64,000 nucleotides of DNA from an uncultured SAR86 cluster bacterium (GTDB lineage Bacteria > Pseudomonadota > Gammaproteobacteria > Magnimaribacterales > D2472): positions 361,328 to 425,327 of the forward strand of contig CACKEY010000001.1 in assembly GCA_902599315.1 (NCBI GenBank), written 5' to 3'. This document shows positions 55,501 through 59,089 of the stretch, piece after piece. The notes beneath the pieces were generated by a model, which saw only the letters and a program-made list of their open reading frames with translations, was not told where the DNA came from and did not search any database. The translations under genes and the position numbers were made by a program. How positions within the stretch are numbered: position 1 is the stretch's first letter; every line of letters begins with the position of its first letter.

Positions 55501-55691
55501 ATTAATCTTGATGCATCCTCAGGAGACGCACCGTCTAGAAAAACAGAAACACTAACAAGGGGGAGTGAAATATTCGGCTCTGAGGCAACTGTTAAAGTAG
55601 TCCTAGCATAAGCACCCGCAATTATGACAACCAATGCCAATGCAAGAGTAGTTCTTGCTTTAGACAAGGCAAAATCTACTATTTTTATCAT
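52515..55691 (-). CDS. RND-family efflux transporter permease
   Basis: A 1058-residue inner-membrane pump subunit with the RND arrangement of 12 transmembrane helices and two large periplasmic loops, duplicated in two halves. Recognisable segments are the N-terminal SPEDASRLIARPLETRL in the porter domain, the GLSIPFCFLLTFIIL helix, TM4 with LGLGMLIDGSIVVTEYADR, FTPLIFWPGFTGQFMRFLP, and TM10-11 SGIVVNNNIVLIDTFNRL. The AcrB proton-relay pair Asp407-Asp408 is represented as Asp-Gly, and Lys940 as Asn. The start ATG overlaps the stop of the adaptor gene (ATGA). Substrate unknown. No outer-membrane TolC-type gene is adjacent. Confidence 0.92.
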   Translation of the reverse strand: MIKIVDFALSKARTTLALALVVIIAGAYARTTLTVASEPNISLPLVSVSVFLDGASPEDASRLIARPLETRLRSVPGIKELSSSARLSYARIVGEFEVGYDIDTALRDIKQAVEEVKFELPIEAEDPQIREYSFAMFPVMNLSLVGSASMRTKVFYARELQDKLESISEVLAADLEGAPEEVLEGVIDKSKMETYGITLSQLYSAIANNNLIIPGGAQDTGSGKFNIEVPSIFETAEDVYNIPIKVTPDAVVTLSDIGQIKRTFKDFSSYAKVNGEDAVTLEIRMRVGANAIEAKKKIIKLKEDFEKDLPKNLSIIRTNDDTVWAEVMISELEGNIITAIFLVMILVIASMGVRVGMLVGLSIPFCFLLTFIILKALSIEFNFLVMMGLLLGLGMLIDGSIVVTEYADRKISEGLNRKEAYRLASKRMFYPIISSTATTIAAFTPLIFWPGFTGQFMRFLPITVFIVLSSSLVYAMIVTPVVGSLFGQRRSTLVSGESEQTGEILFDKLSAFYSKALNKFVKNPGETMIAVLMLLWFVGYAMYGNFNKGTLYFADVDPVAAEINIRARGNFSSQEAKDIMEIVEERLLKVEHVENLYMTTGSQWFNSGGDTMARGYMEVVDTEFRDISGNEVFIKAQEATADIPGVIVELTAEEGGPSFGSPIELGIFGDNEESVAKTTEIIEEYMINEVVGLTNIRSTLPYSLIEWKVEVNKQKAAQLGVSIRDIGALVQMLTNGFKVGEYRPDDSKDEIEIRARFDTKNRSLSGIENLKVNSLNGLIPISTFVELVPVENRQSVVRRDGKFFHEIGVAIDKTQLDSSGQVYLVSDKVKEMGDWLSEQTFDSGITTKFRGMQEETEEVTEFLSIAAITALALMMILLVTQFNSFYQSILVLSAVFMSIVGVLAGLLITGKPFSTTMTGISIVALSGIVVNNNIVLIDTFNRLTGEFPNLSREDVIIRTCKQRLRPILLTTATTIFGLLPLALGISIDVLGREIVVGSRVVGWWQNLASSIVFGLAFSTILTLIFTPAALTLPSRIKLWLKNRFDFLESSSEVVNKKS

Positions 55692-56569
55692 GATTCAGTT
55701 TTTGGAATTGCAATGACTCTTTGACCATTCTCTACAAAACCTTGCCCACGAACTATCAGATTGGAAGCATTAGGAATTCCTTTAACCCAAAGGCCATCTT
55801 GGGTATCTTCTAATATTTTTATTGGAAAGAATTCAACAAATCCATCATTATTTACAATTCTAATCCCAAGAGTGCCGGAGTCAGATAAAAGAAGTATTGA
55901 GGGAGAAATTTTATTAGCAAGTATTTTATTTGTGCTAATTTCTAGGGTTCCAGTTATTCCATCTCTAATTAATCCTTTTGGATTTCTGACCTCTGCTTCT
56001 ACTCTAAAACTCCTAGTTGAAGGAGTGGCACTTTTTGAAACAAAACTTAATTTACTAGAAATCACTTCACCAGTTACAAGCATGATGGACACATTCTGCC
56101 CCTTAACAATATTTTTTATTTCTGCTTCTGGTACTTCAGCAACAAAAGTAACAGGGTCTAACTCGATAATTATGGCGCAAACTTCACCCCTATTGATAAA
56201 GTTTCCTGGTTTAATTATTTTTTCAACGTAACCTCTAAAAGGAGCTTTTACTTCTGTTCTATTTAATTCCACAACTCCTAACCTGCATAAAACCTGATCT
56301 TTCTTAACCCATTGACCTTGATTCACATTATTAGGCATTACTTCGCCTGAAGTTTTTGCAATAACTCTAACTCTTTTTTCAGATGTTGCTGCGGCGTTAA
56401 GAGTTACTTTAGGGGAAAAAAATTCTGCATCACTTTTTTCTATAATTACCGAGGTTAATTCTTGAGAAGATTTTTTTTCAATCACTTCCTCTTCAATGAA
56501 TTGACCAGAAATTACCCACCCAATTATAGGAATGAGAATGTATAGTGATATTCTTACGTTTTTAGACAT
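55688..56569 (-). CDS. RND periplasmic adaptor (membrane fusion protein)
   Basis: A 293-residue HlyD/AcrA-type adaptor with an N-terminal membrane anchor (residues 5-24), a split lipoyl domain (RVRVIAKTSGEVMPNNVNQG and EVKAPFRGYVEKIIKPGNFI), a very short hairpin between them, and a beta-barrel domain (VEAEVRNPKGLIRDGITGTL). It would link the permease at 52515-55691 to an outer-membrane channel. It is the first gene of the pair. The upstream promoter carries a perfect 9+2+9 palindrome, suggesting repressor control. Confidence 0.9.
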   Translation of the reverse strand: MSKNVRISLYILIPIIGWVISGQFIEEEVIEKKSSQELTSVIIEKSDAEFFSPKVTLNAAATSEKRVRVIAKTSGEVMPNNVNQGQWVKKDQVLCRLGVVELNRTEVKAPFRGYVEKIIKPGNFINRGEVCAIIIELDPVTFVAEVPEAEIKNIVKGQNVSIMLVTGEVISSKLSFVSKSATPSTRSFRVEAEVRNPKGLIRDGITGTLEISTNKILANKISPSILLLSDSGTLGIRIVNNDGFVEFFPIKILEDTQDGLWVKGIPNASNLIVRGQGFVENGQRVIAIPKTES

Positions 56570-56670: not shown

Positions 56671-57249
56671 TCAAAGACCATGTTTTTTTCGTAAACTTTC
56701 AAAAAGCTCAATGTCTAAGGGCTCAATAATTTCGTTGTTGCTCTTTGAGACTATCTCAAAGTTTTTTCCTGCTTTTATTTCCTTTGCAAGGCGCATGTAG
56801 GTTTTAGTGAATGCTCGAAAAGCATTTGTATCTTTTGAGGAGTTTATCAACTCCCAGCCAGTTTCTTTGCCTGACCAGTAAATTATTGGATGTGTCCAAG
56901 GGTAGCTATCTCTGGGAGATGAGGATTTTTGAGCTTCAATAAAAGCTTCTTGAGGGGTTGGAATATTAATTGCACCCATTGATTCCGAACACGCTTTAAG
57001 GAATTCTGTAAGTGTTGGTAGGTAATCATTAGATTGAATAACCATTTCAACTGCAGAGCTTATACAATCTGACGGATATTTTTTTAGGCTTTCCGCCCAA
57101 AGTTTTTTTGCTTCAGTAAGCTTATCGTCTGTCCCAAAGACTTTGTAAAATTGATAATGATATGAAAGCTCAAGCTTTAAAAAGAGGCCATCAATCGCAG
57201 CGATGAAGCTTTCTCGTTCAGAGTTCGAGATTTTCTGCCCAGGAGTCAT
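56671..57249 (-). CDS. Lambda-P-like replication protein (putative helicase loader)
   Basis: A 192-residue protein resembling phage lambda replication protein P. Shared elements are FIAAIDGLFLKLELSYHYQF near the N-terminus, EAKKLWAESLKKY, the NDYLPTLTEFLKACSES segment and the diagnostic RDSYPWTHPIIYWSGKETGW, as lambda P has YPW then HYW. P proteins load the DnaB helicase. I start at ATG 57249, overlapping the previous gene by 32 bases; the frame stays open to 57360 but that part reads as a shadow of the DnaT-like gene. It is in the DAHP synthase operon, outside any visible prophage. The call rests on motif resemblance. Confidence 0.7.
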   Translation of the reverse strand: MTPGQKISNSERESFIAAIDGLFLKLELSYHYQFYKVFGTDDKLTEAKKLWAESLKKYPSDCISSAVEMVIQSNDYLPTLTEFLKACSESMGAINIPTPQEAFIEAQKSSSPRDSYPWTHPIIYWSGKETGWELINSSKDTNAFRAFTKTYMRLAKEIKAGKNFEIVSKSNNEIIEPLDIELFESLRKKHGL

Positions 57250-58036
57250 CTTTTGTTCTTTCTTTGAACTGCTTAGAGAACTCTCCTGGTTCATTATGTC
57301 TGTTATTTTTTTTACCATCTCTTTCTTCGTAGGAACCAATAAACTCTTTTCTTTTAACAAAATCTACAAATTTTGAGTTCCATGACCTTAAAGCAGTTCC
57401 ATTTTCTTTCCAGTAAAGTATAAACTCCTTCAAGTGCTTTAACGCGTCATTTTTTGAAACATTTGCTAATCCTAGAATATCAAATGCATCAGAGGAGGGC
57501 GACCAGCTCTCATCAATGCACACTGGCAAACCTTTATTTTCAGATTTTTCTTTTACCCACTCTCTTCTAATGAATTCAACAAATAAAACATTCCAGTTAT
57601 CTCTTATCTGATTTTTTTCTAACCAATATAATTTAAATTCACTGACCTTGCTTTCGATGAATTTTTTATTTATGCCGCCCATCCCCAGTACCTCAAAAGT
57701 TTGTGTTGAGGGAGCCCAAGTTAAATCAAGTTTTCTTTTACCAATACTAGAATTTTTAGTTGGAAGCTTTAATTTATATAAATTTTTTTTACTTGAAGGC
57801 TCGCTATTATCAGAGTTAATTTCTGAGGATATTAGTTTTAAACTAATTAATCTTTTTAGATGATTGGAAATTTCTTTTTCCTCGAGAAATGGAATTTTTT
57901 CTTTTAACAATACTAATATTCTATTGTCAGCAGATGAAGAGATTTTTATTTCTTTAGAAGCTGCAAGAACTATAGCGCATTCTATTCCTAATGTTTCTGC
58001 TTCTTGAATTGAAAAAGTGAATAAGTCCTTGTTCAA
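57218..58036 (-). CDS. DnaT-like primosomal protein with two tandem DnaT domains
   Basis: A 272-residue protein. Residues 1-75 look like a winged-helix module (IPFLEEKEISNHLKRLISLKLI). Two DnaT-type domains follow: residues about 105-160 (WAPSTQTFEVLGMGGINKKF, then EFKLYWLEKNQIRDNWNVLF) and about 176-231 (WSPSSDAFDILGLANVSKND, then EFILYWKENGTALRSWNSKF). E. coli DnaT has one such domain and helps DnaC load DnaB during replication restart. The C-terminal 40 residues are polar and disordered-looking. It starts with TTG at 58036, directly after the aroG stop (TAATTG), and precedes the lambda-P-like gene. The pair likely works as a helicase-loading unit. Confidence 0.75.
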   Translation of the reverse strand: MNKDLFTFSIQEAETLGIECAIVLAASKEIKISSSADNRILVLLKEKIPFLEEKEISNHLKRLISLKLISSEINSDNSEPSSKKNLYKLKLPTKNSSIGKRKLDLTWAPSTQTFEVLGMGGINKKFIESKVSEFKLYWLEKNQIRDNWNVLFVEFIRREWVKEKSENKGLPVCIDESWSPSSDAFDILGLANVSKNDALKHLKEFILYWKENGTALRSWNSKFVDFVKRKEFIGSYEERDGKKNNRHNEPGEFSKQFKERTKDDSWAENLEL

Positions 58037-59089
58037 TTATCCTCGCCTCTTTTGAACAGCTTCACTAAATAGTTTTAAGCAGTTAAGTGTATCATCCCAA
58101 TTCATGCACGCATCGGTAATACTTTGTCCATATACAAGGTTATCTGTAATACTTTGATTTCCTTCAACAAGATGACTTTCAAGCATTAAACCCCTCAAAC
58201 TATTATTACCTTCAGCAATTTGTAAGGCTAAGTTTTCTACAACATCAATTTGTTTTTTAAATTGTTTTTGACTATTTCCATGACTTGCATCAACCATAAT
58301 AGAGTCATTTACGTCTGCTTCAGTTAATGCAGTTAATGTTTGTTGAATTGAGTCTGAACTAAAATTTGGCTCTTTACCCCCGCGCAATATGATGTGCGCA
58401 TCTGAATTTCCAGATGTTTTATATATTGATACTCGACCATCTTTTGTATTTGAGAAAAATACATGAGGATGGTTGGCTGCTTGGATGCCGTCAATTGCAG
58501 GTTTTAAAGCTCCAGTTGTCCCGTTTTTAATACCTATAGGACAAGAAAGACCAGAGGCTAATTCTCTATGAGACTGGCTTTCAGCTGTTCTAGCTCCTAT
58601 GGCACCCCAAGACACAAGATCTGCTACATATTGAGGAGAAATGGGATCTAGGAATTCTGTTCCAATTGGCAGCCCCAATGCAGTAATATCTCTTAGAATT
58701 TTTCTTGCCAGCATCAAGCCTTTATTTGCATCATAACTTTCATTAATATCTGGATCATTGATTAAACCTTTCCAACCCACTGTTGTTCTAGGTTTCTCAA
58801 AATATACTCTCATTATTATCAACAAATCAGCGCTTAATGAATCTCTTGCCCCTTTTAAAAGACGAGCATATTCCATCGCGGATTGTGGGTCATGTATAGA
58901 GCAAGGTCCACATACAACAAGCACTCTATCATCTTTGCCATGAAGAATTTGACTAGCTTCATTTCTAGTTCCATATACTAATTTTGAAATTTCATCAGTT
59001 AGTGGATACTCCGAAATTACATTATTAGGTGTAATAAGGTCAAATTTTTCAACAATTCTTGTATTGTCTGTGTGGTAAATAGATTCCAT
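58037..59089 (-). CDS. aroG: 3-deoxy-7-phosphoheptulonate (DAHP) synthase, class I
   Basis: A 350-residue enzyme that condenses phosphoenolpyruvate and erythrose 4-phosphate, the entry to the shikimate pathway. It has VVCGPCSIHDPQSAMEYARL near residue 58, MRVYFEKPRTTVGWKGLINDP (as YFEKPRTTVGWKGLINDP), GTEFLDPISPQY, GAIGARTAESQSHRELASG and MVDASHGNSQKQ. The isozyme type (AroF, AroG or AroH) cannot be settled, so aroG is used as a generic symbol. A hairpin followed by a U-run in its leader may attenuate it. It is upstream of the DnaT-like and lambda-P-like genes. Confidence 0.93.
   Translation of the reverse strand: MESIYHTDNTRIVEKFDLITPNNVISEYPLTDEISKLVYGTRNEASQILHGKDDRVLVVCGPCSIHDPQSAMEYARLLKGARDSLSADLLIIMRVYFEKPRTTVGWKGLINDPDINESYDANKGLMLARKILRDITALGLPIGTEFLDPISPQYVADLVSWGAIGARTAESQSHRELASGLSCPIGIKNGTTGALKPAIDGIQAANHPHVFFSNTKDGRVSIYKTSGNSDAHIILRGGKEPNFSSDSIQQTLTALTEADVNDSIMVDASHGNSQKQFKKQIDVVENLALQIAEGNNSLRGLMLESHLVEGNQSITDNLVYGQSITDACMNWDDTLNCLKLFSEAVQKRRG

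Follow-up and report, generated by a model that had tools for sequence, protein, structure and literature searches.

How is the replicative helicase DnaB placed on DNA in SAR86? Bacteria differ in how this is done, and two overlapping genes in the genome of one member of this abundant marine lineage raise the question directly. The pair lies on the minus strand of the 64-kb window, the whole stretch of DNA analysed here (contig CACKEY010000001.1, positions 361,328 to 425,327), which is part of a 1.44 Mb genome in 17 contigs. We borrow the names dopC and dopE for these genes from the published pair DopC/DopE. In 2017, Brezellec et al. reportedly proposed that domesticated lambda O/P genes encoding these two proteins are a third type of helicase matchmaker, with DopC said to be derived from lambda O and DopE from lambda P; to our knowledge, this third proposed route has barely been tested. 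We consider it probable that SAR86 loads its DnaB helicase with this resident pair, a domesticated phage O/P-type system standing in place of DciA or DnaC. What the analysis shows are the domain families, the modelled folds, conservation, the absence of DciA, gene context, selection, the absence of dopE from two families and a tail that the DopC of these families has in common with DopE.

The dopC-like gene (57218..58036, minus strand, as are all features below) encodes 272 amino acids (aa). An original prediction, made from the sequence alone, had given it two DnaT-type domains behind a winged-helix-like N-terminus, and a profile search agrees on the first point: the protein matches PF17948 (DnaT) with an E-value of 2.3e-32 (110.9 bits, cut-off 25) over two stretches, at 57536..57730 and 57347..57517. 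The predicted model is modest (mean predicted local distance difference test score 70, predicted template modelling score 0.34), and it shows a winged helix at the N-terminus, as anticipated (residues 6–77, 57806..58021). A Foldseek search with this model returned no match at E ≤ 0.001, and the lambda O Pfam profile did not match DopC. At the C-terminus, a D-x-S-W-A motif (57221..57250) resembles, by eye, the ends of phage O proteins.

The second gene, dopE (56671..57318, 215 aa counted from a conserved ATG), had been called lambda P-like. It matches the Pfam family Phage_lambda_P (PF06992; E-value 1.2e-9, 38.6 bits, cut-off 26) and PHROG 109, annotated as 'P-like helicase loader' (E-value 2.2e-19), and the motifs quoted in support of the call are present in the translation. 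Both families thus exceed their curated cut-offs, and the profile matches rule out chance motif matches as the source of the assignments. NCBIfam yielded no informative match for DopC or DopE, and neither matched the AAA+ profile of DnaC/DnaI (PF01695). The best structural match of the DopE model is lambda P bound to DnaB; the fold is shared over nearly the whole length, and the alignment extends to residue 215 in DopE and residue 224 in lambda P. The model comprises an N-terminal helical domain with a G39P-like fold (residues 32–116, 56971..57225), a compact helical domain containing a W-T-H-P motif (residues 122–182, 56773..56955), an extended linker and a C-terminal tail helix (residues 203–215, 56674..56712), which we propose as a DnaB-docking helix.

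Searches for the usual loaders covered the order. The DciA profile (PF05258) matched neither DopC nor DopE, nor anything in their own genome, and found no homologue in any of the 151 genomes of the order, while the same search recovered 298 of the 369 genomes sampled from the class. The DnaC/IstB family profile (PF01695) matched 147 of the 151 genomes, but among the matches listed the open reading frames (ORFs) span 286–812 aa, none is DnaC-sized, and we take them for AAA+ proteins such as DnaA and Lon. Because of the complete absence of DciA and the lack of a DnaC-sized protein among the PF01695 matches listed, a non-DnaC route for DnaB loading is the best reading. The original prediction of a distinct loading route may hold in that respect, but not as a new idea, since DopC/DopE had reportedly been proposed already. 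Among the papers listed in literature searches, none dealt with helicase loading in SAR86. A DnaT domain was detected in 133 of the 151 genomes, and in 16 genomes tested DnaB was found in 15 (all but G028) and PriA exceeded the cut-off in 15. DnaT itself is a restart protein in E. coli, and its domains here, together with the PriA found in most genomes tested, would suit a pair that acts in replication restart only, as part of a primosome of the PriA/DnaT kind. DnaB would then be loaded at oriC by DnaA on its own or by some loader that went unrecognised. We regard this as unlikely, given that the searches for two families, DciA and PF01695 (the latter among matches listed), revealed no other loader and that the partner of DopC is a relative of lambda P, which acts as an origin-type loader in the phage.

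The phage type of both proteins raises the possibility that the pair is what remains of a prophage, either recent or decaying, with no function in the cell. The original prediction considered the genes domesticated and regarded their confinement to variable prophages of sister genomes as one of the outcomes that would speak against it. In a tblastn-confirmed scan of genome contigs, 78 loci from relatives (L003-L080) were retrieved, of which 77 carry dopC, 74 aroG, 76 the membrane-fusion protein (MFP) gene and 75 the resistance-nodulation-division (RND) pump gene; judged by position, loci without one of these genes are cut off there by the end of the locus or contig. The pair thus lies between aroG and the efflux operon in nearly all relatives, at a chromosomal locus conserved across SAR86, as domestication would have it. 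The ratio of non-synonymous to synonymous substitution rates (dN/dS) between the window pair and six relatives, with the overlap excluded, is 0.06–0.20, although dS is saturated (1.2–2.5) for three of the six; for dopE it is 0.06–0.12, indicating strong purifying selection. Because synteny is conserved and dN/dS is low, we conclude that dopC and dopE form a fixed, selected chromosomal locus, and conserved synteny rules out a prophage island. Searches for a near phage donor found none: phage tblastn gave only distant P proteins on the P side (26 records, with 20.8–27.1% identity among the 20 matches listed) and four records with a DnaT domain on the other (26.5–26.9% identity), and IMG/VR returned 4 and 6 loci. 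With place and order kept in nearly all 78 relatives and in families f1 and f3, purifying selection on the pair and no close phage relative found, a functionless remnant is extremely improbable.

The distribution of dopE within SAR86 offers a view of which parts of the putative loader may matter. A DopE profile built from f1 and f3 rows, and therefore less sensitive for f2 and f4, matched 50 of 55 f1 and 36 of 40 f3 genomes, but none of the 35 f2 and 21 f4 genomes, in which DopC was found in 32 and 16, respectively. In 13 f2 and 8 f4 loci (L081-L084, L095-L106, L120-L124), dopC is followed directly by the MFP gene, leaving no space for dopE, and aroG lies upstream in all of them except L081, a short contig. 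DopC of f2 has three DnaT domains, and in both families it ends in a peptide resembling the end of DopE, such as KLKEKHQI or NLREKYKI. Scored with a matrix built from 48 distinct f1 DopE tails against 1020 control C-termini, these DopC ends exceeded the best control in 11 of 13 f2 and 8 of 8 f4 loci (19/21), whereas the ends of DopC from f1 and f3 did not exceed the controls. An intermediate form occurs in one subclade (L072-L079), where DopE has about 140 aa and keeps the N-terminal domain and the tail, the compact domain being gone. The SAR86 families form a natural deletion series, from full DopE to DopE without the compact domain to DopC with only the tail, which predicts the indispensable part of a P-type loader and could be tested with small purified proteins.

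Did this reduction happen once or twice? In a tree built without an outgroup from aroG, MFP and RND (29 rows, 895 columns), a single branch splits f1 and f4 from f2 and f3, with a support of 100 in the Shimodaira–Hasegawa-like approximate likelihood ratio test; the dopE-less state needs two changes on this tree. A single clade of f2 and f4, implying one loss of dopE, was rejected (approximately unbiased test, P = 0.0091), with the proviso that the tree genes flank the locus and a block transfer would mislead. With aroG only and L138 as outgroup, FastTree gave a support of 1.0 for f1+f4, 0.13 for f2+f3 and 0.25 for f1. Both genes are present in the outgroup genomes G153 and G195, and f2 and f4 are separate on the tree, which suggests that dopE was lost on two occasions and that the tail stayed on DopC both times, as far as can be judged from genes that all flank the locus. 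That two families independently dropped the P-type loader except for its DnaB-docking helix and moved this helix onto the end of the DnaT-repeat protein is a tentative proposal, whose chances we put slightly below even. If true, it would yield a loader in one non-AAA+ protein, in which a winged helix is followed by DnaT domains, two or three of them, and then by a docking helix; so minimal an architecture would set it apart from DnaC/I, DciA and DopCE. The same data could be taken to mean that DopE is a leftover partner of DopC, or an inhibitor, that does not load DnaB, with DopC alone recruiting the helicase by another surface: the f2 and f4 genomes show no DopE (0/56), and L072-L079 have a shortened one. 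We find this improbable, as dopE is under the strong purifying selection described above and a DopE-like tail is retained on DopC in nearly all sampled dopE-less loci.

On the favoured reading of a resident loader, we infer DNA binding, contact between DopC and DopE, docking on DnaB and loading. Where an origin or fork has been opened, DopC would bind the DNA through its winged helix and its tandem DnaT domains, acting as single-stranded DNA-binding modules, and its C-terminal D-x-S-W-A motif would hold DopE. DopE may then act like lambda P, inserting its compact domain between DnaB subunits while its C-terminal helix reaches the linker-helix/docking-helix (LH-DH) site of the neighbouring subunit, so that the ring would be opened or steadied for single-stranded DNA to enter. 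In families without dopE, the tail would allow DopC itself to dock on DnaB. In the lambda P–DnaB structure, P consists of a compact helical domain and an extended region ending in a helix against the DnaB linker helix, with a residue assignment that the authors call tentative (PMC6391071), and the LH-DH site is described as common to DciA, DnaC and lambda P (PMC9912922). The C-terminal helix of DopE corresponds to this lambda P helix, with a weak match in the tail itself: a forced global alignment sets IAEIKAKFGL of lambda P against it with a probability of only 27. The DopE tail may thus be a DnaB hook.

Several observations weigh against this reading. Sequence similarity between DopE and lambda P is weak (hhalign probability 24, E-value 0.00085), and an O origin of DopC rests on gene position and the short C-terminal motif seen by eye. 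No DnaT match was obtained in 18 of the 151 genomes of the order, including the single-contig assembly G012. The tail is also less uniform than the f1 sequences suggest, in that 3 of 15 f3 DopE tails exceed all controls, the tail of lambda P itself scores −11.2 on the matrix and DopE of the outgroup genome G195 ends, by eye, without such a tail. Finally, the linker and docking helices of SAR86 DnaB (L170-L184) are strongly diverged, and the docking-helix tryptophan of E. coli is absent in five of five f1, three of three f3 and one of two f4 proteins compared, while both f2 proteins have it. Because these helices are so changed, docking of the lambda P kind may not carry over to SAR86 DnaB. The divergence could reflect co-evolution with a new partner or a different mode of docking, in a comparison limited to SAR86 proteins and E. 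coli DnaB.

How does the SAR86 pair relate to known systems? A loader pair derived from lambda O/P is not new in kind, since DopC/DopE had reportedly been proposed already. What is new is that SAR86 has a fixed version built on DnaT domains and that the partner has been cut down to a tail, a reduction not known to feature in the description of DopC/DopE. As in that description, a replication-initiation protein adjoins a relative of lambda P where DciA is absent and no DnaC-sized ORF stands among the PF01695 matches listed, and SAR86 DopE is lambda P-derived, chromosomal and outside any prophage; SAR86 DopC, however, is made of DnaT repeats, where the published DopC is reportedly lambda O-derived. 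Like lambda P, DopE matches PF06992 and has the lambda P fold over nearly its full length, but unlike the lambda genes, the SAR86 pair is chromosomal and fixed across the order, and in the upstream partner DnaT domains stand in for the DNA-binding part found in lambda O. In contrast to E. coli DnaT, DopC carries its DnaT domains as tandem copies, two or three in number and preceded by a winged helix; its neighbour is a P-type protein, and no DnaC-sized protein was seen in the order among the PF01695 matches listed. The SPP1 helicase loader/inhibitor G39P matches DopE weakly in sequence (profile E-value 0.024), and most DopE proteins differ from it by the added compact domain. The Cellvibrionales are described as lacking DnaC/I and DciA by Brezellec and colleagues (2016, PMC5109545), and DopE is listed among loader families in PMC13326638.

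Across the 369 genomes sampled from the class, the DopE profile matched 13 (3 of them SAR86) and the DnaT profile 10 (4 of them SAR86). The two DciA-negative outgroup genomes have a three-DnaT DopC beside DopE, with aroG upstream in G195 but not in G153. Among DciA-negative genomes outside SAR86, PF06992 matched 3 of 67, all from family f106 (G252, G368, G467); this explanation therefore does not extend to the loaders that most of the sampled DciA-negative gammaproteobacteria use, in a set where DnaC was not searched. In f106 (L149-L151, one genus), an O-like winged-helix protein without DnaT adjoins the P-like protein. This is apparently another domesticated O/P pair, and it looks nearer than the SAR86 pair to DopC/DopE as reportedly described.

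Some further observations concern single genomes and contigs. In the DciA-negative genome G310, one 385-aa protein (L143:3871-5028) combines a winged-helix-like sequence, by eye, with the DopE N-terminal domain; a neighbouring gene looks, by eye, like rpoD. L139-L141 and L157 hold O/P pairs of prophage-like and mobile character. A viral metagenome contig (L160:2995-3507) encodes a 170-aa protein with two DnaT-like repeats and a D-S-S-W-A end, by eye, and no P-like neighbour was seen for it. Within SAR86, G012 (f4, single contig, 1.0 Mb) has neither a DnaT nor a DopE match.

The minus-strand gene order in the window is aroG, encoding 3-deoxy-D-arabino-heptulosonate 7-phosphate synthase (58037..59089), dopC, the overlapping dopE, the efflux MFP gene (55688..56569) and the RND pump gene, with neighbours named by eye; the adjacency, the overlap and the position next to aroG had all been described correctly, and aroG and MFP are conserved neighbours in SAR86. 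The start of dopE is most likely the ATG at 57318, to judge from the loci compared: a methionine in its register is conserved in 63 of 71, which disfavours the TTG at 57360. The dopC ORF opens with a TTG immediately behind the aroG stop, and in 44 of 74 loci it is likewise opened by a TTG directly after the preceding in-frame stop. The overlap between dopC and dopE measures 98 nt in three of the 71 loci, 104 nt in one and 74 nt in the remaining eight, which belong to the short-DopE clade. In the window, 101 nt (57218-57318) code for both proteins, a length retained in 59 of the 71 loci.
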